Shown: positions 65 to 20,876 of the stretch, piece after piece | Layout: every line of letters starts with the position of its first letter | Numbering within the stretch: the first letter of the stretch is position 1 | Virus record (IMG/VR): IMGVR_UViG_3300009094_000797 | Coordinates: 1-20,876 of that record | Reading direction: 5' to 3' (one strand) | DNA length: 20,876 nucleotides | DNA from: a virus | Made by a program: the position numbers and the translations under genes | The notes under the pieces: generated by a model | Databases searched by the model: none | What the model was told of the DNA's origin: nothing | Seen by the model: the letters and a program-made list of their open reading frames with translations, nothing else

Positions 65-101
65 AAAGGGGCCCATGTTGCATGGCAATATAGGCCCTTG
101 G
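65..101 (+). repeat. 37-bp inverted-repeat element, copy A
   Basis: The left arm AAAGGGGCCC (65-74), a 17-nt loop (75-91) and the right arm AGGCCCTTGG (92-101) have the same 10-17-10 geometry as copies at 5751-5787 and 17007-17043. By eye it matches the 5751 copy at about 26 of 37 positions, including the loop start ATGnTGC. The arms here pair imperfectly (core GGGCC/GGCCC), so a transcription terminator is unlikely for this copy. It sits 38 nt upstream of the first gene, which favours a protein-binding or promoter-associated role. Confidence 0.55.
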
Positions 102-3267: not shown

Positions 3268-3495
3268 ATGGCGTCAAGATGGATCGCGGTGGATGAGGTC
3301 GGCAACGACAACTTCGCCACCAGCATTTACGAAGACGATTTCAAGGGACTGCTGGTCTGCCGCTGTAATCAGAACGGCCAATATCCTTGGCAGGCTCCGG
3401 CGATAATTCTCGGCCTGGAGCAGAGCCGCGCTTCCTCTGCTGATTCGAAAATGAAGTCCTCGTGTGAGTCCCAGCCCAACAGGAGTAGTGTATGA
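3268..3495 (+). CDS. Small hypothetical protein with altered 3' end
   Basis: A 75-residue frame from ATG 3268, two bases after the previous stop, with GGAGG about 9 nt upstream. Residues 1-50 are well-formed (MASRWIAVDEVGNDNFATSI ... AIILGLEQ) and include VCRC. The last about 20 residues (ASSADSKMKSSCESQ) are low-complexity. They are encoded by a 31-bp segment (3432-3462) that is 30/31 identical to 4141-4171 but is read there in another frame, so the C-terminus has probably been rewritten by recombination or duplication. Its TGA overlaps the next ATG. Confidence 0.6.
   Translation: MASRWIAVDEVGNDNFATSIYEDDFKGLLVCRCNQNGQYPWQAPAIILGLEQSRASSADSKMKSSCESQPNRSSV
3432..3462 (+). repeat. 31-bp dispersed direct repeat, copy 1
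   Basis: This segment matches 4141-4171 at 30 of 31 bases; the only difference is A at 3443 against G at 4153. In the frame used by copy 2 it would read FLC-stop-FENEVLV, the single change turning TGG (Trp) into TGA. Here it is instead translated in a different frame as the tail of the 3268-3495 protein. The flanks are unrelated, which points to a short duplication or illegitimate recombination. Confidence 0.85.
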
Positions 3496-3986: not shown

Positions 3987-4233
3987 CCTCGACTCCGAAC
4001 ACAGCCGCGCCCGCGAGGCCATTGGCCGCTTGCTCGAAGCCATCAGCGACCTGGTCGCTATTGACTCCATACCGTGGCCCAACAAGCGCGACATGGTCTC
4101 CTTCGAAGCCAGCGAAAACCAGTGGACCGACGTAGGCGAATTCCTCTGCTGGTTCGAAAATGAAGTCCTCGGCGACGATGAAGACGAGGAGGAAAAGGAG
4201 GAGGAAAAGGAGGAAGGAGCGAAAAATGACTGA
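3976..4233 (+). CDS. Small acidic protein with poly-Glu tail
   Basis: An 85-residue acidic protein from ATG 3976, overlapping the previous gene by 11 nt, with GGAG about 9 nt upstream. Residues 1-65 are helical (SRAREAIGRLLEAISDLVAI). The tail (about residues 68-83) is almost entirely Asp/Glu/Lys (DDEDEEEKEEEKEE) and is encoded by a 12-bp tandem repeat. The same purine-rich DNA provides the Shine-Dalgarno for the next gene. Acidic tails occur in DNA-mimic and histone-binding-like proteins, but nothing here proves such a role. Confidence 0.7.
   Translation: MAIDLDSEHSRAREAIGRLLEAISDLVAIDSIPWPNKRDMVSFEASENQWTDVGEFLCWFENEVLGDDEDEEEKEEEKEEGAKND
4141..4171 (+). repeat. 31-bp dispersed direct repeat, copy 2
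   Basis: This copy encodes FLCWFENEVL within the acidic protein at 3976-4233 and is 30/31 identical to 3432-3462. It reads through as a natural part of the protein here, so it is probably the donor. Confidence 0.85.
4186..4209 (+). repeat. 12-bp tandem repeat encoding the acidic tail
   Basis: Two perfect copies of GAGGAGGAAAAG (4186-4197 and 4198-4209), followed by a partial third, encode the repeating Glu/Lys tail of the upstream protein. They also place several AGGAGG-like sequences ahead of ATG 4226. Replication slippage here could vary tail length. Confidence 0.8.
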
Positions 4234-4429
4234 CTCTGTCGACCTACCGCTAATCCGCCGCCTCAGCGAAACCAGCCCGCGCGCCCGCAAGGACTATCGC
4301 TGCGACATCTGCGGCCAACCTATCCGAAAGGGCGTAAAACATTGTCGCTATTCCTTCATCGATGAGGACAGCGCGCCCGCGGCGCGCTTCGGCTGCCTCC
4401 GCTACCACATCCTTTGCCCCGAGGTATAA
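4226..4429 (+). CDS. Small treble-clef/zinc-finger-like protein (paralogue of 2801-3040)
   Basis: A 67-residue protein from ATG 4226, preceded by AGGAAGGAG, overlapping the acidic-tail gene by 8 nt. Ligand candidates C26, C29, H39, C40, C57, H61 and C64 match the numbering of the protein at 2801-3040 exactly, apart from the extra C40. The shared core is CxxCGxxIxxGxKHxR ... CxRxHxxCP. The resemblance is too exact for chance and indicates an in-phage duplication, now highly diverged. The function is unknown; metal binding is inferred. Confidence 0.75.
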   Translation: MTDSVDLPLIRRLSETSPRARKDYRCDICGQPIRKGVKHCRYSFIDEDSAPAARFGCLRYHILCPEV

Positions 4430-4431
4430 TC

Positions 4432-4827
4432 ATGAAGCGAGTCATCCTCGAATCCCCCTACGCGGCGCGCAATGGGCGCACCATCGACGACAATATTGCC
4501 TATGCTCGATGGTGCGCCCGCGATTGCGTTAATCGCGGCGAGAGCATTCACGCCTCCCATCTGCTCTACACACAATTCCTCGACGACTCGAAGCCCGAGG
4601 AACGCGAACTCGGAATCAAGGCCGGCCTCGCCTGGCTCCCCGTCGCCGATTACTCCGTCTACTATACGGATCACGACTGGAGCAGCGGCATGCTTGCAGC
4701 CCTGCACGAGCATTCTATTAAGCGCGGCTTCGACTTCCGTATCCGCGCACTGTTCGGTCCTGCCAAGCTTCCCGCCACGCTGCATGAGGAAATAGAGCAT
4801 GTCCTCCGATCCAAAATCGAGCAATGA
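4432..4827 (+). CDS. DUF7768-like protein (nucleoside deoxyribosyltransferase-like fold suspected)
   Basis: A 131-residue protein from ATG 4432, with GAGG 7 nt upstream. The first 90 residues carry a distinctive phage pattern: VILESPYA at the N-terminus, DDNIAYARWCARDCVNRGE, then ASHLLYTQFLDD, ERELGIKAGLAW, and ADYSVYYTDHDWSSGM. I associate this with DUF7768. The layout (strand, ESPY, Asn/Tyr helix, SHLLYTQ, GxxAGLAW, D-x-x-V-x-Y-T-D) recalls the nucleoside 2-deoxyribosyltransferase/DUF4406 superfamily, so a nucleotide-handling role is plausible. I cannot assign catalytic residues with confidence. The tail (HEEIEHVLRSKIEQ) is helical. Confidence 0.75.
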   Translation: MKRVILESPYAARNGRTIDDNIAYARWCARDCVNRGESIHASHLLYTQFLDDSKPEERELGIKAGLAWLPVADYSVYYTDHDWSSGMLAALHEHSIKRGFDFRIRALFGPAKLPATLHEEIEHVLRSKIEQ

Positions 4828-5544: not shown

Positions 5545-5721
5545 ATGCACACCTACCGCAAATTCCTATACAGCGGCTCAAACCCAGCGCGTTTTTATTA
5601 TGAAATCGGTTATTGGCTTGACCAACAGTGGATGAAACTTGAAACGGTCGAAGGCGACTCTGCTGAAGCCGATGCTCGCGCCCGCGTCAATTACCTCAAT
5701 GGTGGGAGCGGCTATCCATGA
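5545..5721 (+). CDS. Small hypothetical protein
   Basis: A 58-residue protein from ATG 5545 with an AAAGGA Shine-Dalgarno. It is rich in Tyr and Trp (YYEIGYWLDQQWMKLE) and ends ARARVNYLNGG. It is the last gene before the control region at 5722-5808, so it closes the first plus-strand block. No family recognised. Confidence 0.65.
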   Translation: MHTYRKFLYSGSNPARFYYEIGYWLDQQWMKLETVEGDSAEADARARVNYLNGGSGYP

Positions 5722-5736
5722 ACTCGTATTTTTTTC

Positions 5737-5765
5737 TTGACAATTCCGGGAAAGGGGCCTATGCT
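5737..5765 (+). promoter_or_regulatory. Strong sigma70-type promoter
   Basis: A perfect -35 box TTGACA (5737-5742) is separated by 17 nt from the -10-like box TATGCT (5760-5765, 4 of 6 consensus). A run of T lies just upstream of the -35 box, like an UP element. The expected start, near 5772, falls inside the loop of the overlapping hairpin, 37 nt before ATG 5809. It would drive the nucleotide/recombination module and suggests use of host RNA polymerase. Confidence 0.75.
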
Positions 5766-5788
5766 GCCCCCCAACACAGGCCCCTTTT
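5751..5788 (+). terminator. Perfect hairpin overlapping the promoter (37-bp element, copy B)
   Basis: AAAGGGGCCT (5751-5760) pairs perfectly with AGGCCCCTTT (5778-5787) across a 17-nt loop, followed by T then AG. Transcripts arriving from the upstream operon would form the full 10-bp stem with a short U run, so it can act as an intrinsic terminator. Transcripts from the 5737 promoter contain only the right arm and would escape. The same sequence is a palindrome over the spacer and -10 box, so it could also be an operator. It matches copies at 65-101 and 17007-17043. Confidence 0.65.
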
Positions 5789-5808: not shown

Positions 5809-6015
5809 ATGACTCCGAACCGAAAAGCTCCCTACGTTCGCCTTCGCATCAACATCGACGCGACGGTGAACGCCCACTTCGAAATGCTTCCAGAGATTCA
5901 TGATCCTGTGACCCGCAATCCGCGCTACGGCGAGCGGAGCAAAATCATCCAAGAACTCATCATCAAATACCTCGAATCGCGGGGCGTTAAACTCCATGCC
6001 GGAGAAGTCCAATGA
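5809..6015 (+). CDS. Possible ribbon-helix-helix DNA-binding protein
   Basis: A 68-residue protein, the first gene after the promoter at 5737. A short strand (YVRLRINID, residues 9-17) is followed by a helix, a loop and GERSKIIQELIIKYLE (residues 41-56), the order expected of an Arc/CopG-like ribbon-helix-helix fold. The insertion between the helices (HDPVTRNPRY) is longer than usual, so the call is tentative. The Shine-Dalgarno is weak. Its place next to a palindromic promoter would fit an autoregulator, which is inference. The stop overlaps the next ATG (ATGA). Confidence 0.6.
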   Translation: MTPNRKAPYVRLRINIDATVNAHFEMLPEIHDPVTRNPRYGERSKIIQELIIKYLESRGVKLHAGEVQ

Positions 6016-10216: not shown

Positions 10217-11596
10217 ATGCGAATCATCAAAAGGAGTGAGCTTGATGTCCCCGACTCCCGACAGCGCCGAACCATGGATCTCCGTGCAGTACAAGATCTC
10301 GCTGCCGACATCGCGACAAACGGGCTATATCACCCTCCAGTCGTACACCGCCGCAGAGACAGCGAAAATTTCGTTCTTGTCGCTGGGGGACGTCGACTTC
10401 GCGCCATTGACGCCATCGGGAACGCGGGTCACATTTTCCATTGTAATCGACAGATCATTACCCCCGGCGAGGTCCCGGTCACAGAACTGAATGACAATCT
10501 GTCGTTCGGTGATCTGAAAACTGTCGAACTGCATGAGAATATCATGCGGGAGGAACTGCCCTGGCAGGACCGCATTTCTGCGCTTGCTGAAATCCACCAA
10601 TTGCGCTTAACTGAAAATCCACAGCAAACCGGCCTCGACACGGGGCGCGAACTGGCCCAAAAGGCGACCTCGAATCCGAGCGAGGGTCAAATGCGGTGGG
10701 CCGGCGTCGCCGTTCGCGAAGCCAACATCATAGCAAGACACCTCGATGATCCGGCGATCCAAAAGGCGCGCAATGCAACGGAGGCGCTCCACCTCGTCTA
10801 CGCCAAAGAGGAAAAAGCGTTCGCAGCCGAACTTATCAAACGCCAGCCGCAACTCGACGCCGCGCCCGATATTCAGGTCCGCCGCGGCAATCTCCTTCAC
10901 CTCATGCCCAGTCTCGATGAAGGTCAATTCGATCTTATCCTTGCCGACCCGCCATATGGTATCGGAGCGGACAGCGGAGGCTTTCGTGCACGTACTGTCC
11001 AACATCATAACTACACCGACGATCCTGCAACAGCTAAAAGCCTGCTGCAATGCATTATTAGCGAAGGCTTCCGGGTCACTCGACAACGCGCAAATATGTT
11101 TATCTTTTGCGATATCGACCTCTTTACGTGGCTCAAGGAAGCGGCGCAGCGCGCAGGCTGGGACGTTTTCCGCACTCCCATAACCTGGGTGAAGTCGGAT
11201 AGTGAGGGGCTCGCCCCCTGGGGCCGCTCCGGCTTCCGTCGCACCTGTGAATGGATCATGTACGCGACCAAAGGCGATAAGGGTCTCTATCATGCACCTG
11301 TCGATATCCTTCGTCATAATCGCGTGGGCCGTGCTGACCGTGAGTATGGACCGGAAAAGCCAGTCCCGCTCCTCGAACAACTTATCTCATGCTCGACGCT
11401 TAGTGGAGATACAGTTCTTGACCCTTGTTGCGGTAGCGGTAGCACTCTTGTTGCTGCTCGCCGGCTGCGCCGCAAGGCCCTAGGAATCGAGCAAGACGAA
11501 AAAGCCTTCAATCTCGCCCTGGTCAACTCGCAAAAGGACGACCAGCCTCAACCGCAGCCCCCGGAGTCCACCGACGTCGGAGTCGAAGCTCTTTGA
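10217..11596 (+). CDS. ParB-like domain fused to a beta-class DNA (adenine-N6 or cytosine-N4) methyltransferase
   Basis: A 459-residue fusion. Residues 1-125 are ParB/Srx-like: GLYHPPVV, LVAGGRRLRAI (55-64) and ELHENIMREELPWQDRI (104-120). Residues about 215-435 are a SAM-dependent DNA methyltransferase with catalytic motif DPPYGI (244-249) before the SAM-binding motif DPCCGSGST (402-410), an order typical of beta-class N6A/N4C enzymes. It probably modifies phage DNA against host restriction, with the ParB part supplying DNA binding or nuclease activity. No cognate restriction gene is seen. GAGG lies upstream of ATG 10217. The stop sits in CTTTGAC, and a +1 shift there would add 19 residues. 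Confidence 0.87.
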   Translation: MRIIKRSELDVPDSRQRRTMDLRAVQDLAADIATNGLYHPPVVHRRRDSENFVLVAGGRRLRAIDAIGNAGHIFHCNRQIITPGEVPVTELNDNLSFGDLKTVELHENIMREELPWQDRISALAEIHQLRLTENPQQTGLDTGRELAQKATSNPSEGQMRWAGVAVREANIIARHLDDPAIQKARNATEALHLVYAKEEKAFAAELIKRQPQLDAAPDIQVRRGNLLHLMPSLDEGQFDLILADPPYGIGADSGGFRARTVQHHNYTDDPATAKSLLQCIISEGFRVTRQRANMFIFCDIDLFTWLKEAAQRAGWDVFRTPITWVKSDSEGLAPWGRSGFRRTCEWIMYATKGDKGLYHAPVDILRHNRVGRADREYGPEKPVPLLEQLISCSTLSGDTVLDPCCGSGSTLVAARRLRRKALGIEQDEKAFNLALVNSQKDDQPQPQPPESTDVGVEAL

Positions 11597-11654: not shown

Positions 11655-11953
11655 TGCGAACGAAACCCGAAGTCGTAACTATCGATCCTGGCGCCGTCCA
11701 GCGCCACCAGGTCCTGCTCAATGAACGCTTTCGGCTCACCGCGGAAGGCAACCTGTTCATCGAACTGGTCCGCATCGGCATGAATCCGCCCCTTAATAGC
11801 GGACAGCAAATGCCAGTCGACGACGTCATCAATCGTGCTTGGCAACTCACCGTCGAAGCCTTCCTTGTCATCGACAAAAACGAGTGGTTCGTCGACGTGC
11901 CAGGCTGGCCCGGCGAACTCATTGCGCGCCATAACGAGGACAAGGCCGAGTGA
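11654..11953 (+). CDS. Hypothetical phage protein
   Basis: A 99-residue protein from ATG 11654, with AAGGA 8 nt upstream. The sequence is mixed alpha/beta, with VVTIDPGAVQ, LFIELVRIGMNPPL and a C-terminal AFLVIDKNEWFVDVPGWPG. No cysteines, no membrane segment and no motif I recognise. It lies between the methyltransferase and the polymerase N half, and its stop overlaps the polymerase start (GTGA). A replication accessory role is possible but not shown. Confidence 0.72.
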   Translation: MRTKPEVVTIDPGAVQRHQVLLNERFRLTAEGNLFIELVRIGMNPPLNSGQQMPVDDVINRAWQLTVEAFLVIDKNEWFVDVPGWPGELIARHNEDKAE

Positions 11954-13698
11954 CCTCCCTGTTCGACTGCACCAGCGGCCCCCTCGACGCCCCGATAATG
12001 CTCGTCGGCGAAAGCTGGGGCTCCGAGGAGGCGGTGCAAAAGCGTCCCTTTGTCGGGGGCGCCGGCCTCGAACTGGATCGCATGCTGGCCGAGGCAGGGA
12101 TCGCGCGCAACTCGATCCTGTGCACAAATGTGTTCAACGCTCAACCGGAGGACAATGAGGCATGGCATTTCTTCCACGATTCTTCGACAACCTCGCCCCG
12201 CTATCGTGGCTTATGTCCAACGAATTTCGCTGTATCGGAAATTCAGCGTTTGGAAGCCCAGATTCGAGCGGTAAAACCCCGACTTGTCATTGCCGCTGGC
12301 AACTATGCTATGTGGGCAACGGCCGACTGCTGCTCAATATCATCAACGTCAACTGGAAATGGTGCGACCGTCCGTGTCCCTGGCGGGATAACTTCTTGGC
12401 GTGGCTCCATGCTGGAGTCGGCGACCATCCCTGGACTCCAGCTAAAGGTGCTCCCGATTCTGCATCCGGCCGCGATAATGCGAGCTTGGTATCAAAGAGC
12501 GGTGACCGTCCATGACCTTAGAACTCGCGTTCCTCGTGCACTGCAAAACATGTGGCGTCCACTTACTGGTCCAAAGGTTCTCGCACCTGGAAGCTTTGCC
12601 GAAACTCGGGAACTGCTGGGCTTGTGGAAAGGGCAGCTTGACCGTGGAAACGGTCTACGCCTGTCCCACGACATCGAAACGGCGCGCGGATTCATCACCT
12701 GTATGTCCTTTGCTACAGGACCTTACGACGAAACAGGGACGGCCCTCGTAATCCCGTTCGTGCGGCCCGAGGGCAAAATCTGGCGCAACTTTTGGAGTGA
12801 ACGGGAGGAAATCGAACTTGTCCAGTGCATTGTGGCCATCCTTTCGCATCCAAACATTCAAATCGAGGGGCAGAATTACCTATACGATCTCCAATACATC
12901 GAATCCAGTTGGGGACGTTGCCCCAGACTCGATTTTGATACGATGCTGGCGCATCACTTACTCTTTCCTGGAACACCGAAGGGGCTGGATTATCTTTCTT
13001 CCCTCTATTGCCGCTACCACTGGTATTGGAAGGAGGACTTAAAGGAATGGAACAATTCCATCGACTGGGAACAAAATCTGCGCTATAATGCTGAGGACAG
13101 TTTGAGGACATTCGAATGCGCAAGCGCCCTTCGTACTCTGATTCGCGATCATGGCATGAGCGAGCTGTGGGAATGGGAAAAGCGAAAGAATTCCATGGCG
13201 CTCTCCATGATGCAAAAAGGCGTTCGCATAAATCGCGAGGCACGCGCCAGGCTCGCCTTCGAACTATCCACTGCCCTGGGGGAACGACATTCCTGGTTGT
13301 CGTCGATTATCCCACAAACCTGGCTGAAGCCTTTTTTGAAAACATCAAAATCGAATTGGTGGGAATCCGTACATCAACAAAAGACCTTGTTCTACGAAAT
13401 TCTTGGCTTAAAAGGCCAAACAAACCGCAAAACTGGAAAATCTACCATCAACTACGAAGCCTTGCAAGAGCTGAAATCGAGAAATCCCGAACTGAGCCGC
13501 ATATTTGATTGTTTGATCGATTGCAGGTCCATTGGCATTTACCATAATACCTTCATCAAGGCTGAACTCGAACCGGATGGCCGCATGAAATGCATGTTCA
13601 ATACTGCTGGCACCTCAACCTTCCGCTGGTCCAGCAGCAGCAATGCCTTCGGTCGCGGAGGGAACCTGCAAAACATTCCTATGGGAGAGGAAGACTAA
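11950..13698 (+). CDS. DNA polymerase I-type, N-terminal half: UDG domain, 3'-5' exonuclease, partial polymerase
   Basis: A 582-residue protein from GTG 11950 (GTGA overlap). Residues 1-200 match a family 4-like uracil-DNA glycosylase: GESWGSEEA (20-28), RPFVGGAGLELDRML (32-46), LCTNVFNAQPEDN and LHPAAIMR (171-178). Residues about 235-390 are a DnaQ-like proofreading exonuclease with all three motifs: DIE (D241/E243), N309 ... D313, and YNAED (Y379/D383). Residues 390-577 are family A polymerase up to FRWSSSS and NLQNIP (572-577). It stops at GEED, just before motif A, which is encoded separately at 14438. UDG-PolA fusions are known (for example SPO1). Whether this half and the C half reassemble is not shown. 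Confidence 0.88.
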   Translation: MTSLFDCTSGPLDAPIMLVGESWGSEEAVQKRPFVGGAGLELDRMLAEAGIARNSILCTNVFNAQPEDNEAWHFFHDSSTTSPRYRGLCPTNFAVSEIQRLEAQIRAVKPRLVIAAGNYAMWATADCCSISSTSTGNGATVRVPGGITSWRGSMLESATIPGLQLKVLPILHPAAIMRAWYQRAVTVHDLRTRVPRALQNMWRPLTGPKVLAPGSFAETRELLGLWKGQLDRGNGLRLSHDIETARGFITCMSFATGPYDETGTALVIPFVRPEGKIWRNFWSEREEIELVQCIVAILSHPNIQIEGQNYLYDLQYIESSWGRCPRLDFDTMLAHHLLFPGTPKGLDYLSSLYCRYHWYWKEDLKEWNNSIDWEQNLRYNAEDSLRTFECASALRTLIRDHGMSELWEWEKRKNSMALSMMQKGVRINREARARLAFELSTALGERHSWLSSIIPQTWLKPFLKTSKSNWWESVHQQKTLFYEILGLKGQTNRKTGKSTINYEALQELKSRNPELSRIFDCLIDCRSIGIYHNTFIKAELEPDGRMKCMFNTAGTSTFRWSSSSNAFGRGGNLQNIPMGEED

Positions 13699-13699
13699 C

Positions 13700-14155
13700 A
13701 TGGATCGTCTACTCTACTTTCGCTTTGCTGCCGACGCCCTTCCGCCGATTCGCGCCCTTCCGAATTCGATCGGCTACGACGTGCACGCCTATCTAAAAAC
13801 AGAATCGGGGCGCTCAACACATAAAAGCATCGGCGCGCAAATGACCTGCGCCGTTCGAACGGGTATTTGTGTCATTCCGCCTCCAAATCATTGCATCCTG
13901 GTTTGCTCACGCTCTGGTCTGGCGGCGAAGGGCGTTTTTGTCGCCAATGCCCCCGGCGTCATCGACCCCGATTACACTGGTGAACTCATCGTCCTCCTCT
14001 GCAACACTGGCTGGGACCTCTATCATGTCCGTCACGAAGACCGTATCGCCCAACTCCTCCTACTTCCCCGGCCTGCGACCCCCGAGGTTGCGGAGGCCAC
14101 CCACCTTCCAGGAACTGATCGTGGGGGCCGTGGATTTGGGTCCACAGGACGTTAG
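13700..14155 (+). CDS. dut: Trimeric-type dUTPase (dUTP diphosphatase)
   Basis: A 151-residue homotrimeric-type dUTPase, which hydrolyses dUTP to dUMP and pyrophosphate. All five conserved motifs are present: IGYDVHA (24-30), RSGLA (71-75), APGVIDPDYTGEL (84-96), DRIAQL (114-119) and RGGRGFGSTG (141-150). ATG 13700 has an AGAGGA stretch upstream and starts one nucleotide after the stop of the polymerase N half. Length is normal for the family. It is unusual only in place, sitting between the two polymerase halves. It fits functionally with the fused UDG domain as a guard against uracil in DNA. The 3' end overlaps the next gene. Confidence 0.92.
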   Translation: MDRLLYFRFAADALPPIRALPNSIGYDVHAYLKTESGRSTHKSIGAQMTCAVRTGICVIPPPNHCILVCSRSGLAAKGVFVANAPGVIDPDYTGELIVLLCNTGWDLYHVRHEDRIAQLLLLPRPATPEVAEATHLPGTDRGGRGFGSTGR

Positions 14156-14444
14156 ACTCGAGCCTCCCTTGCTCTGGGTCCGAGGCCGCCCCGCCATCGT
14201 TTATTGGAAGGATGTAATGATTTTCTGCCACCAGCGGGCAGAGATTTTCATCCATCTCCATATTGCAGGCCGCAATGGCTGTTCCGGCCCCTGGCTCGCG
14301 CAACGGCTCGGCCGCGAATGCAAGATCGAATCCATAGTGAGCTACATTGCGCGAATGCGAAGTACGCTACGCTCCGTTAATGCTCACTACGAAATCTCCC
14401 ACGGTCGCGGGGCCTATATCCTGTCGAGGACGAGCGGATGCTAA
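14121..14444 (+). CDS. OmpR/PhoB-like winged-helix DNA-binding protein
   Basis: A 107-residue protein starting at GTG 14121 (AGGA 7 nt upstream); an earlier ATG at 14025 is also in frame. The sequence follows the OmpR/PhoB effector fold: an N-terminal strand pair (LLWVRGRPAIVYWKD), a helix (IFIHLHIAG), GPWLAQRLG, then the recognition-helix region SIVSYIARMRSTLRS and a beta-hairpin wing (YEISHGRGAYIL). No receiver domain is present, so it is not a classical response regulator. It overlaps the dUTPase and, by 7 nt, the polymerase C half. A transcriptional regulator inside the replication module is inferred; targets are unknown. Confidence 0.72.
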   Translation: MGAVDLGPQDVRLEPPLLWVRGRPAIVYWKDVMIFCHQRAEIFIHLHIAGRNGCSGPWLAQRLGRECKIESIVSYIARMRSTLRSVNAHYEISHGRGAYILSRTSGC

Positions 14445-15184
14445 CCGAATACAAGCTTCCGAATATCAGGAAAATCTTCGTCCCCGATCCCGGCTATATC
14501 CTCTTCGACGCCGACTTGGCTGGAGCTGATGCCCTCGTTGTTGCAGCCGAGGCGGAGGACGATTTCCTCCTGAACGCGGCTCTAACGGGCTATGACATTC
14601 ATAGTGAAAACGCGGAGCATATGCTTGGCACACAGTTCACGAGGCTCATCGGGGCGGAGCGTAAAGCCGTCCGCCAGAAGTTTAAGAGTGGAGTGCACGG
14701 TACTCACTATGGCGGAAAACCTCCAACACTTGCATCCACGTTGGGCTATAGCCGGGATTTCTGGAGTCGCTTTCAGTCCTACTGGTTCGGACTCCACCCC
14801 GGCGTTAAGGGCTGGCATCAGCGAGTGGAACGAAGCCTTGCGACGAATCGGACAATTCAAAATGCCTTCGGCTATCGGATCATCTTCTATGATCGTATCG
14901 ATTCAATTTTCCCTGAAGCGCTCGCCTGGGGCCCGCAATCAACGGTCGCGGAAACCTGCTTCCGCGGAGCCCTCCAATTGAAATCGCGCTGCCCCTGGGT
15001 CGAACTCCTGCTCCAGGTGCATGACAGCATTGTGTTCCAGGTCCCGAGCCATCGATCCGATTGCATTCCGCAAATCCGGGCGGCGCTTCCCGTTCCTGTT
15101 CCTTATCCCAAACCACTCCACATCCCGTGGGGTTTATCGGCCTCCCCGGTGTCGTGGGGCGACTGTCAAAAGGTTCCAATATGA
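14438..15184 (+). CDS. DNA polymerase I-type, C-terminal half (palm/fingers)
   Basis: A 248-residue protein that carries the polymerase motifs missing from 11950-13698. Motif A is FDADLAGADA, with catalytic D26 and D31 at the place of the usual Glu in SQIE. Motif B is RQKFKSGVHGTHYGG, with R79, K83, H87 (position of E. coli Pol I F762) and Y91. Motif C is LLLQVHDS, with catalytic D196. It begins with LPNIRKIFVPDPGY, the normal sequence after NLQNIP, so it continues the N half almost without a gap. ATG 14438 lies inside the winged-helix gene's end. Alone it lacks the exonuclease and part of the palm/thumb and should need the N half to work. Confidence 0.88.
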   Translation: MLTEYKLPNIRKIFVPDPGYILFDADLAGADALVVAAEAEDDFLLNAALTGYDIHSENAEHMLGTQFTRLIGAERKAVRQKFKSGVHGTHYGGKPPTLASTLGYSRDFWSRFQSYWFGLHPGVKGWHQRVERSLATNRTIQNAFGYRIIFYDRIDSIFPEALAWGPQSTVAETCFRGALQLKSRCPWVELLLQVHDSIVFQVPSHRSDCIPQIRAALPVPVPYPKPLHIPWGLSASPVSWGDCQKVPI

Positions 15185-16729: not shown

Positions 16730-17046
16730 CGCGGATGATGTCCGGGCCAGCCATTACAATGCGCCACCTCGTGTCGCAGTAGGCTCGTCTCCGTCATCAC
16801 ACTATCGACATTGATGATAATGGTGCAACGGGAGGCCGAATGCAGAATTGCGCAGGCCCCGACATTCCCGAAAACCGTCGTCCGCTGCGAATCACACAAT
16901 CTGTTCGCTTCGAGTCGATGAACCCGCACAATGGTCAATTCGCCCTTGTATGGGAAATCGTAACGCTCTGGAGGAGGAGTTGCTATGAACAAGAAGCCGA
17001 TCAGGGAAAGGGGCCCAAGCTGTTCCACTACATGGCCCCCTTTCAC
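16726..17046 (-). CDS. Small HExxH metalloprotease-like protein
   Basis: A 106-residue minus-strand protein from GTG (17046-17044), which overlaps the stop of the large upstream gene (GTGA), so it is translationally coupled. Near the C-terminus, LLRHEVAHCNGWPGHH contains HExxH plus downstream histidines, a zincin-type zinc site. I recognise the CTIII ... RHExAHCNGWP pattern from small uncharacterised phage proteins. The N-terminus (LSLIGFLFIATPPPERYDFP) has a hydrophobic stretch like a weak signal or lipoprotein leader. Proteolysis of cell-wall or virion proteins is inference. It converges on the plus-strand operon and shares CTAG as stop. Confidence 0.75.
   Translation of the reverse strand: MKGGHVVEQLGPLSLIGFLFIATPPPERYDFPYKGELTIVRVHRLEANRLCDSQRTTVFGNVGACAILHSASRCTIIINVDSVMTETSLLRHEVAHCNGWPGHHPR
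17007..17043 (+). repeat. 37-bp inverted-repeat element, copy C
   Basis: AAAGGGGCCC (17007-17016), a 17-nt loop (17017-17033) and GGCCCCCTTT (17034-17043) pair at 9 of 10 positions. It matches copy B at about 28 of 37 positions in the plus orientation. It sits exactly between the stop of the large minus-strand gene and the body of the metalloprotease gene, whose codons 2 to 14 it forms if GTG 17046 is the start. Confidence 0.55.
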
Positions 17047-20000
17047 TGCACTCGTCGAATGTCTTGCAAGCCGGGAGGCGCGCCTTCGGGATAAAGCGCG
17101 TCGATGCTTTGATAAAGCGTTGTGTCTCTCCGCCCCGTTGGCAGCCCCGATTCTTGTCGAGCTCTATCTTGTGCTCTTCTCACTATTGATTGTCGCAAGT
17201 TCGTTCCTGTTATTGCTTTCGCTTTTGCTTCTTCAGGCAGGCCCCGATTGAACGCTTTTACGGCTTCGATCACCGACTCGATCTGCTCCGGATTGTTGTC
17301 CTTCACGGCGCTCCAATATTGCCTCATGAGCAACTGGCGCCTGATTTCCCAATACTCCACCGCCTCCGCTTTCGCAGCAATGTTTTCCTGTCGGGCTACG
17401 AGCCTGGTCGGCTGGAAGCCAAGACCCCTTGCTAAAATCTCTGCGGCCCCCATCGTATCATAGGGGTCGAACTTGATGATCTGGTTCCCGCGTCGATTCC
17501 TTTCGCCGCCTTCCTCTGCAAAGCGCCACGCCGTGCTCACGTCGCGAATTGCGGCAGGCATTATCTGCTCCCATTTCTTCCTGTCTGGCTCTGTGAATGG
17601 ATTGCTCGTCGCGAAATTGTAAAGCGAGAATCCTATTCCGAACGCTGCACCGCTCGCCCTTTGGATTTGCTGCAATTCATTCCGCTCCGGGCTCTTCGAG
17701 GGCGAGAAGGCTCTACCTACGTCGAACGGCAAAACTTGTCCCATCCCAATGCTGCGGCTAATCGAAACGCCCCGCGGCTCCGGGAACGTTCCAGCGTATT
17801 CATTTTTGTCCCTTAAACCGAGCGTCGAGCCCATCAAATCCAAAACATGCGGGACGCCGAACGCATAACGTCCAACGCCGTGCATCACCAGATCAGGCGA
17901 AATGGCTCCATTGCTCAATGCTCGAACTTGCTTCCGCACTTCGTCCTCGAGGTCGAAATCACTGGACAAAAATCGCTTGCTCAGCATTTTCATGATCGAG
18001 CTAATGTCTTCAGAAAACGGCAGTCCGGCCAGGCCGGCGGCGCCGCCGAGCAATAGCATTTGCCGGACAAAGCTTCCCTTATTATTCCACAAATTGAACA
18101 GCACGTTCTGCTGGAAGCTCTTAAAAAGCAAAACGGCGCCAAGTCCGCCTTGAAACATTTTCGGCCGCGCATGATACCCATATTCGAACATGGATTCCTT
18201 GACTGCGACCGTGGCGGCGGTGTATGCTGCGGCTTCCTCGTGACTCCAATTCTTTTCCCGGAGTCGCAGATAAAGCAACTGGTTCGCCTGAATGCTGTTC
18301 TGGACGAACTTCGAACCGAGATCCTTTTTCGCCAAATCATAGGCACCGAGCAGGGTCGTCGTCCGCCCCCATTGCTCACTCATTTCGAACATTTTAGCGG
18401 AAAGCTCCGCGCCTTCCTGCCAGGTCCGCTCAATTCCCTTTCCAAGCCCCTTGAACAGATTCCGCCCTTCGCTCAACGCCCCAAGTTCATACGCTTGTTT
18501 TGGAGCAGTCAATCCGTCGTCGGCGCCCTGTTGCAGAATCCGCAATTCGTCCGCTGCCATATGCGACGTGGTCATGCGGCGGAACAGAGTGTTCGATTTT
18601 CCCGTTGCTCGAATCAGTGCGGCGGCCGACTTAAAATCGCCGAAATGACTGCTCAAATTCGGCCACGCCACCAGCGGGACCTGAGTCAAATTGATCGCGG
18701 CGGTGGAGACTCTGAATCCCATGTGGAAGTGGAACATCGCTCCCTTCAACCGAGCATAATCCGCCTTCGGATTCAGCACGGTGTCCAAGTGCTCTGTCAT
18801 CAAATTCCGAATCTGGTCGAGCTTCGTGTGGTCGTTCCGGGTCAAGCGTTCATTGGTCATTTCCGCAATCATATCTCGCATTTGATCGGCATATTTGATC
18901 CGAGCGAAATAATGCGACCCATGAAACTTGTATTGCGCGTAGGCGCGCTGCCAGTCTTGTGAATAGCCCGGCGTGAAATCCTTTTGCTGGAAATGATGCC
19001 TGAAGCTTTGCGCGGGCGCATATTCGAACTTGAGCTGGTCGATCGAATCCCTCATATTTTGACTCAAATTCAATTTGTCTGCAATCCGATCGAGCATGCC
19101 TGGGGGCATCCCGAGCAACGGATGCACATCCTTGTGCAGGAACCCAGATTTCACCTGTTCGCCCTGCGCCGCGGCGGCCTGCATTTGCTCAACGGCGCGA
19201 TCTCTCGCCTTTTGCGTTTCAAACCGATAGAATTCCTTCACCTTTCCATCAACTGTATACGTCGTGGCGGTGTAATCGCCAAATCGAGCAAAGGGCATGA
19301 ACGGAATGCTGTCCATTGCACGAATCTGCGCCTCGACGCGCTCCATCGCTTGCGCTTGTTCGATCGGATCGCGGATGCGACTAGTTTCCGCCATCAATAT
19401 GTCCTTGTATCGCATCAAATCATTTCGCAAATCAGTAATAATAGCGCCAAATTGCTTCGCCCCCCTTTCCGTCAATCCATGTTTCTTGATAAGAGCTCGC
19501 AGCTCAGTATCGGTGGGCCTCCGCAGTCCGTCCTTCGCCAATTCCTTCGGGTCCATGAACCGACCATTTGCATAATCGTCGATGAATCGGCCGAGGGCCT
19601 CGCCTTCCTCGCGGCTCAAGTGCTTCCACGGCCGCATGACATTAATATCAGCTTGATTCAATGCCGTTATGGTTTCGAGGTTCAGCAAATCGGTCAACTC
19701 CCGATAAAGCTGAAGCGGCAAAATGTGCTCGTTCCGCTTCGCAATCTGCTGAAGCGAAAGTGCAACCTTATAAAACCAATTCATCCGATCCCCGTGCGCC
19801 GCAAAGGCTCGACCTTCGGCCCCAGCGCCTGCGCCGTCGAGGATCGCCCTTCCACCTCCCGTGCTCCCCATTTGCGGGGTAGCCGGTGCCTCCGTCCCTT
19901 CGGTTTGCAACGCACGAGCATTTTTCAGCAATCCTTGCAAGTGCATGGTGCTGGCCACCTCCGGTCCAAACACTCCATTCTGCTGTATGAAACTGTCGAG

Positions 20001-20876
20001 CCATGCGCGCATTGCGGGTGCCGCTTCGAACGATTCCCCGGTCACCGCCTGTCGAACGGCGCGCACCACATCCCGGATAACGCGGCCCAGCGACGAGAAA
20101 AACTTATCGACAACAGACATAGGCTTGGCGTCTGTGGTCGCCCACCGCGCCACGTTATCCGCAAACCACTCATTAAAACCGAACCAATACTCGCGCTCCG
20201 CTTGTGGCATGTCGATCCAACGCAAATTCCTCCAACTAGTCGAGCTTGGCTCATTGAACTCAGAAATCGGAGCTCTACGTCGCACGAGGGCGTTCGCGGC
20301 ACTCGGATCAGTTTTCATCCGCATTACGAACTTGTCGTAATCGTCGAAAATTGCAACTTTTTTCTCCGGCGGCAATTTATCAAAAACGTCGTACATCAAA
20401 TGATGTCCGAATTCGTGGGCGAGCGTCGAATAAATCTGCTCCGGCGATTGTGCATTCGCCAGATTTATGCGAATGATTTTCTCGTCCGGATGATACCAGC
20501 CTCGACTCGTGTCGTTTGGATCATGATACAACTCGATTTTGCGCAAATCTGTCCCTTCGAGTCCCATCGCCTTTCGAACGTTTTCCAAAACCTTGATTGC
20601 CTGGCGCGCCGCCGCGCGGATTCCCGGTACCTCCCCCATCGCCACACCCGGATCGATGACCTGTGCAGCAACCTTCTGCTCGAATAGCGGCAGCCCCCGC
20701 TTGATGCGGCTCCCCGCCTCCGGAGAGACATTGATATATCGATTCCTGGTCGCATTCAAAAGCTGTCTTTGACCAGCAATCGTATTCGCCATAGGCTCGT
20801 CTGCTCGAATCGCCTGTGGCCCCACATCGAACGTCGTCTCGCCTCCATCCATGCCGAGCTTCTTCGCCCACTTTTG
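17043..20876 (-). CDS. Large polyvalent phage protein: metalloprotease domain plus PLxRFG-like region (5' partial)
   Basis: The frame stays open to the right edge (upstream codons read QKWAKKLG before the ATG at 20852), so the N-terminus is probably outside the window; 1269 residues are visible from that Met. Residues about 90-250 form a zinc metalloprotease: LAHEFGHHLMYD (HExxH at 146-150) and downstream NEWFADN (E228, likely third ligand). A PLxRFG-like motif, MPFARFGDYTATTY, lies near residue 515. A hydrophobic stretch (QMLLLGGAAGLAGLPF, about 928-943) could insert in a membrane. Size and layout fit internal virion/ejection proteins of podoviruses. This is structural inference; the protease substrate is unknown. 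Confidence 0.85.
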   Translation of the reverse strand, partial: QKWAKKLGMDGGETTFDVGPQAIRADEPMANTIAGQRQLLNATRNRYINVSPEAGSRIKRGLPLFEQKVAAQVIDPGVAMGEVPGIRAAARQAIKVLENVRKAMGLEGTDLRKIELYHDPNDTSRGWYHPDEKIIRINLANAQSPEQIYSTLAHEFGHHLMYDVFDKLPPEKKVAIFDDYDKFVMRMKTDPSAANALVRRRAPISEFNEPSSTSWRNLRWIDMPQAEREYWFGFNEWFADNVARWATTDAKPMSVVDKFFSSLGRVIRDVVRAVRQAVTGESFEAAPAMRAWLDSFIQQNGVFGPEVASTMHLQGLLKNARALQTEGTEAPATPQMGSTGGGRAILDGAGAGAEGRAFAAHGDRMNWFYKVALSLQQIAKRNEHILPLQLYRELTDLLNLETITALNQADINVMRPWKHLSREEGEALGRFIDDYANGRFMDPKELAKDGLRRPTDTELRALIKKHGLTERGAKQFGAIITDLRNDLMRYKDILMAETSRIRDPIEQAQAMERVEAQIRAMDSIPFMPFARFGDYTATTYTVDGKVKEFYRFETQKARDRAVEQMQAAAAQGEQVKSGFLHKDVHPLLGMPPGMLDRIADKLNLSQNMRDSIDQLKFEYAPAQSFRHHFQQKDFTPGYSQDWQRAYAQYKFHGSHYFARIKYADQMRDMIAEMTNERLTRNDHTKLDQIRNLMTEHLDTVLNPKADYARLKGAMFHFHMGFRVSTAAINLTQVPLVAWPNLSSHFGDFKSAAALIRATGKSNTLFRRMTTSHMAADELRILQQGADDGLTAPKQAYELGALSEGRNLFKGLGKGIERTWQEGAELSAKMFEMSEQWGRTTTLLGAYDLAKKDLGSKFVQNSIQANQLLYLRLREKNWSHEEAAAYTAATVAVKESMFEYGYHARPKMFQGGLGAVLLFKSFQQNVLFNLWNNKGSFVRQMLLLGGAAGLAGLPFSEDISSIMKMLSKRFLSSDFDLEDEVRKQVRALSNGAISPDLVMHGVGRYAFGVPHVLDLMGSTLGLRDKNEYAGTFPEPRGVSISRSIGMGQVLPFDVGRAFSPSKSPERNELQQIQRASGAAFGIGFSLYNFATSNPFTEPDRKKWEQIMPAAIRDVSTAWRFAEEGGERNRRGNQIIKFDPYDTMGAAEILARGLGFQPTRLVARQENIAAKAEAVEYWEIRRQLLMRQYWSAVKDNNPEQIESVIEAVKAFNRGLPEEAKAKAITGTNLRQSIVRRAQDRARQESGLPTGRRDTTLYQSIDALYPEGAPPGLQDIRRVQ

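Follow-up and report, generated by a model that had tools for sequence, protein, structure and literature searches.

Five copies of a 37-bp palindrome, each built from two inverted 16-bp half-sites (AAAGGGGCCYATGYTG) flanking five variable central bases, lie between genes in the virus record IMGVR_UViG_3300009094_000797 (20,876 bases, hereafter the window) and in a contig that overlaps it. On balance, we favour the reading that these palindromes are double-stranded DNA operators of a phage-encoded regulator, most likely the 68-aa ribbon-helix-helix (RHH)-like protein encoded on the + strand at 5809-6015, whose gene starts 22 nt after one of the copies. A broader proposal is offered tentatively, with clearly less assurance: the family of this protein may represent previously undescribed RHH-like phage regulators that run a small genome-wide regulon in widespread uncultivated tailed phages, with a lineage-specific, co-evolving operator code at conserved genome places, including roadblock-type sites between the DNA polymerase and helicase genes.

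At 99.8% identity, the first 963 bases of the window coincide with the end of another contig, 28,007 bases long (IMGVR_UViG_3300006844_000037, or G001). This contig was taken as the left continuation of the window, although the two may possibly be separate strains instead. An earlier note on the window had reported three copies of an inverted repeat, at 65-101 (site A), 5751-5787 (site B) and 17007-17043 (site C); these positions were right, and its identities of 26/37 between A and B and 28/37 between B and C were exact on recount, A and C sharing 23/37. The overlapping contig raised the total from three to five with site D (L028:11100-11136, equivalent to G001:25107-25143) and site E (L027:10319-10355, equivalent to G001:10319-10355), so that five copies of identical geometry were found in about 48 kb. 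The pattern AAAGGGGCC-N15..25-GGCCC occurred three times on the + strand of the window; across 2000 dinucleotide-preserving Markov shuffles it averaged 0.0025 occurrences and never exceeded 1. Site E, left out of a matrix trained on A-D, scored 39.8 with it, the values in five shuffles being at most 8.9.

The copies had been described as a hairpin with a 10-17-10 geometry. The inverted repeat itself was confirmed, but the outer 10 bases are completely paired in site B only (10/10, as against 9 in C and 6 in A), and symmetry continues inward past them to position 16, so the unit was redefined as 16-5-16. The half-sites thus span 65-80 and 86-101 in A (centre CATGG), 5751-5766 and 5772-5787 in B (centre CCCCC), and 17007-17022 and 17028-17043 in C (centre TTCCA), B being the best dyad with 14/16 matches. 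Predicted coding overlap amounted to 0-3 of 37 bases per site for A-E, while only 11% of 37-base windows in the genome background have five coding bases or fewer; the placement at gene or module boundaries claimed for the three copies therefore holds for all five. Site A follows the tas gene, which is carried on the overlapping contig, by about 80 nt and precedes an ORF at 140-334. Site C lies between convergent genes, and its last base (17043) is also part of the stop codon of a minus-strand gene (17043-20876), which encodes a large late protein of at least 1269 aa matching DarB-like antirestriction and unknown families in PHROGs. Likewise, site E touches the stop codon of a minus-strand late gene.

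Promoter boxes had been noticed only at copy B and, among A-C, a good sigma-70 promoter was indeed found at B alone. This element (TTGACA-17-TATGCT, 5737-5765, + strand; one found, 0.1 expected in shuffles) is positioned just upstream of the 68-aa RHH-like gene, and its -10 box, TATGCT at 5760-5765, sits in the left half-site of B. TTGACA-17 promoters also precede the RHH-like gene in two relatives. In G006, TTGACA-17-CATAAT is placed in the same way relative to a variant site; in G015, TTGACA-17-CATCAT is accompanied by at most one recognisable half-site, degenerate at best. In G015, about 7 nt separate the -10 box from the ATG of the RHH-like gene (L043:9948-9983), which suggests a leaderless mRNA or one with a very short leader.

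Palindromes of this kind could also act in RNA, as intrinsic or bidirectional terminators or as mRNA-processing hairpins at the boundaries of transcription units. GC-rich arms with A-rich left flanks and T-rich right flanks would suit such elements, as would the convergent genes around C and the stop codons touched by C and E. However, no intrinsic terminator was called at B or C with loops of 3-8 allowed, T runs being limited to 2-4, and the spacing is fixed among the copies of the window phage, whose half-site letters are conserved from copy to copy. Covariation between arms was assessed on 18 sites in five genomes with G-U pairs allowed: 204 of 262 pairs were formed, versus 207.8 after permutation (p=0.92). 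Because pairing within a site was no better than pairing across sites, the palindromes look like DNA sites rather than RNA hairpins. Additionally, with the -10 box inside the left half-site of B, a transcript from that promoter would not contain the whole palindrome. Terminators or processing hairpins are thus considered improbable. Among the roles listed in the earlier note, a phage regulator site is the one favoured here; the RNA-processing hairpin is disfavoured on the grounds just given, and so is a promoter for a phage polymerase, the sites being two-fold symmetric and B overlapping a sigma-70 promoter of host type. No phage RNA polymerase was found by search, but the control of that search was equally silent, so this result has no weight by itself.

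If the sites are operators, the RHH-like protein already singled out from the sequence appears to be the best candidate binder. Its homologs were found in G006, G008, G012, G015 and Mel-JY34. Among 80 helicase loci, 19 also carried a member of the family, roughly 6-10 kb upstream of the helicase; loci whose upstream flank is short had no chance of being counted. No significant match to the family was obtained in Pfam or PHROGs; single members matched RHH_3 (E 0.007) and RHH_1 (E 0.027) of Pfam. Profile-to-PDB comparison with the first family profile gave four hits, with NikR at the top (E 0.17) and two CopG/Arc-type antitoxins behind it (E 0.9-1.1), and a further PDB profile search returned Antitoxin EndoAI (E 0.06), a CopG-family protein (E 0.3) and MCM7 (E 1.2). 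The AF2 monomer, built from 16 sequences, displayed helices at 18-25 and 42-57 with a mean pLDDT of 81.8 and no N-terminal strand of three residues or more, and Foldseek with this model produced no meaningful match and no RHH structure among its results. The leading PDB profile matches, to RHH proteins or RHH antitoxins, are weak (E 0.06-1.1), and the assignment to the ribbon-helix-helix class is accordingly tentative.

A scan of the rest of the genome and of related phages, as suggested in the earlier note, revealed further intergenic copies and, in relatives, dyads with letters of their own. In IMG/VR, a looser first pattern matched eight contigs, L006 alone being related to the window, and the strict full-site pattern matched that contig only. 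The strict pattern scanned against GTDB retrieved two unrelated Streptomyces records, reading as GC-rich hairpins after genes, and a homologous-protein scan with L028:4653-6950 recovered the same phage only. The exact site letters look private to this phage.

Four relatives display dyad families of their own, which differ in letters, keep a nearly constant spacing inside a given genome and occupy similar places. Their half-sites read AACCGGGCGGTGTC in G006, AAGGGCCGGTGGC in G015, AAGGGCGGTTAAC in G008 and TTGGGGGCGGAGAT in G012. A de novo dyad search gave 67 for the window phage, 67 for G006, 56 for G015 and 57 for G012, versus 50-55 in a control of two shuffles per genome. In G008 a low-complexity stretch swamped the signal of this search, and its four sites were obtained by a motif scan that started from the palindrome at 5683. 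For Mel-JY34, G011 and L014, no dyad family rose above the control of the de novo search. The distance from the outer G-rich to the C-rich box is about 19 bases in most genomes (by eye) and 20 in G012, and the G006 site at the regulator promoter is 2 bp shorter.

The positions occupied by these dyads fall into a few recurrent places. Sites were found at the start of the regulator operon (window B, G006 17726, G012 5946, G008 5683, L069 1032 and L059 48) and at the polymerase/helicase junction (G006 7144, G015 12392, G012 15785, G008 15997, G011 8464 and others). In the late operon, site E and G006 38575 are both just upstream of orthologous genes, G015 40687 is one gene further and G008 37274 is nearer the capsid gene; in the early region, sites were located at window A, G006 22491, G015 26319 and G012 320. 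Late-operon and early-region places are similar and, in some genomes, not strictly orthologous. Sites C and D are without clear counterpart in the relatives, C lying after the helicase and the sites of the relatives before it. No site was found at either junction covered in L014, the polymerase of which is 70% identical. Two features of a self-regulating viral regulon of the SvtR/AvtR type are present, namely a family site at the promoter or operon start of the regulator and sites at other, including structural, genes (A, C, D and E; the late-operon sites of G006, G015 and G008).

The polymerase/helicase junction was analysed in 80 loci collected by a helicase-profile scan, of which 68 had a mapped polymerase stop codon; this set includes G006, G011, G012, G015, G008 and L014, used earlier, and most of its loci are new. 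A dyad was called when the junction score ranked in the top 15% of its own locus. Gaps of 40-95 nt had a dyad in 16 of 17 junctions; for shorter gaps the figure was 1 of 24, and for longer gaps 5 of 27. The corresponding Fisher p of 1.8e-9 for the 40-95-nt class is optimistic, because the limits of the gap classes were set with the locus list already in view. Nineteen loci were tested blind for a site common to the RHH-like gene and the junction, and only L076, which corresponds to G012, gave a clear case. A wider search added L059 and L069, giving 3 of 7 usable RHH-bearing loci with a junction dyad (binomial p 0.004) in which the best second match lay upstream of the RHH-like gene at a distance of no more than 1 kb.

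This distribution bears on two further explanations. A mobile or gene-converted short repeat devoid of regulatory role would account for copies being more alike within a genome than between genomes. Such a repeat is nonetheless very improbable: the copies of the window phage are only 23-28/37 identical yet free of indels, similar places are occupied in relatives by different letters, and the dyads at the polymerase/helicase junction are strongly non-random.

The second explanation retains DNA operators and assigns them to another factor, either the ParB_N/DNA-methylase fusion (10217-11596), the HTH protein (L028:9512-10144) or a regulator of the host. Homologs of the first two are present in relatives with dyad families, a host regulator would dispense with any phage regulator gene, and some RHH-bearing loci are without a site at the RHH-like gene, none matching having been found upstream of it in L088, L102, L105, L054 and L055. 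On the other hand, the RHH-like gene is the only one seen repeatedly in an operon that begins with a family site, in the six genomes and loci listed above. The strong variation of operator letters between relatives is also more easily reconciled with a phage regulator that drifts quickly than with a conserved enzyme, although a host factor varying from host to host remains compatible with it. Another binder is accordingly regarded as rather unlikely, if a more serious alternative than those considered so far.

The surroundings of site A raised a different question. A tas gene (L028:12060-13019, equivalent to G001:26067-27026; NCBIfam NF052498, E 3e-32) lies just to the left of A and is preceded by a dual-repeat array (about G001:25955-26060) of AGCGTGCYA and AGYAACCCA, with repeats and spacers of about 9 nt, so that this TIGR-Tas system is bracketed by sites D and A. 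The sites might be guide-RNA units or targets of this system, and the properties of tigRNA, which is 36 nt long and has two spacers pairing with opposite DNA strands (PMC12045711), agree with such a role. However, the spacer pairs matched A-E no better than shuffled sequence did, and the searched relatives with their own dyad families have no Tas homolog at E below 1. On these two grounds the explanation was rejected as having hardly any likelihood, and TIGR-Tas was treated as a neighbour.

Other features of the window were recorded along with the sites. The early region contains a 31-nt direct repeat, 97% identical, at 3432-3462 and 4141-4171, and a DUF7768 protein is encoded at 4414-4827 (Pfam, E 3e-24). 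The family A DNA polymerase is in two pieces within 11950-15184, a UDG-exonuclease-polymerase N half (11950-13698) and a polymerase C half (14438-15184), with a dUTPase ORF (13643-14155) between them; in many relatives the halves are separately placed.

With the RHH-like protein as the regulator, a coherent scheme can be outlined. Binding of its dimers to the two inverted 16-bp half-sites would be cooperative. At B, the bound protein would cover the -10 box and thereby repress its own strong promoter. At A and D in the early region, at E in the late operon, at C at the end of the late operon and at the polymerase/helicase junction of the relatives, nearby promoters would be repressed or elongating RNA polymerase would be blocked, and both replication and structural genes could be tuned in this way. 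In each lineage the letters of the operator would drift while spacing and places are kept. If this is true, regulator and operator letters drift together under a preserved regulon layout, and the relatives offer a natural series of matched regulator/site pairs for testing specificity change in a small DNA-binding protein. An unnamed gene family would also gain a function, and regulatory maps would become available for phages represented solely by metagenomic sequence.

Several known systems can be compared with this proposal. NikR binds widely spaced inverted half-sites and was the best, although not significant, hit of the first family profile. It differs in that the 68-aa protein has no room for a metal-binding domain, and in the sequence and spacing of the operator. 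Mycobacteriophage cluster A stoperators are asymmetric, 13 bp long and mostly in one orientation; a genome can have up to about 30 of them, and they occur in temperate phages with an immunity repressor (PMC6550527, PMC9283540). They resemble the palindromes described here in being scattered over the genome and mostly off promoters, with one at the repressor locus and a genome-specific motif (PMC6550527, PMC9283540). The present sites fall outside this class of short, numerous, asymmetric elements, since they are symmetric, about 37 bp long and number 3-5 per genome. Tyrosine integrase PF00589 was found in none of 7 records, its control being positive in 14 genomes. Among RHH proteins, SvtR of SIRV1 recognises three sites besides its own promoter, one of them at a tail-fibre gene, and AvtR of AFV6 has eight potential sites (PMC5569661). 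In both systems, as proposed for the present phage, a small viral RHH protein represses its own promoter and binds a few further sites, and the operator is an imperfect inverted repeat, but they belong to archaeal viruses with TATA/BRE promoters, and their operators are shorter and of other sequence (PMC5569661). Binding was demonstrated by experiment for SvtR and AvtR (PMC5569661), whereas that of the window phage is predicted from sequence. SvtR and AvtR, together with the mycobacteriophage stoperators, appear to be the closest known counterparts of the regulon proposed here.
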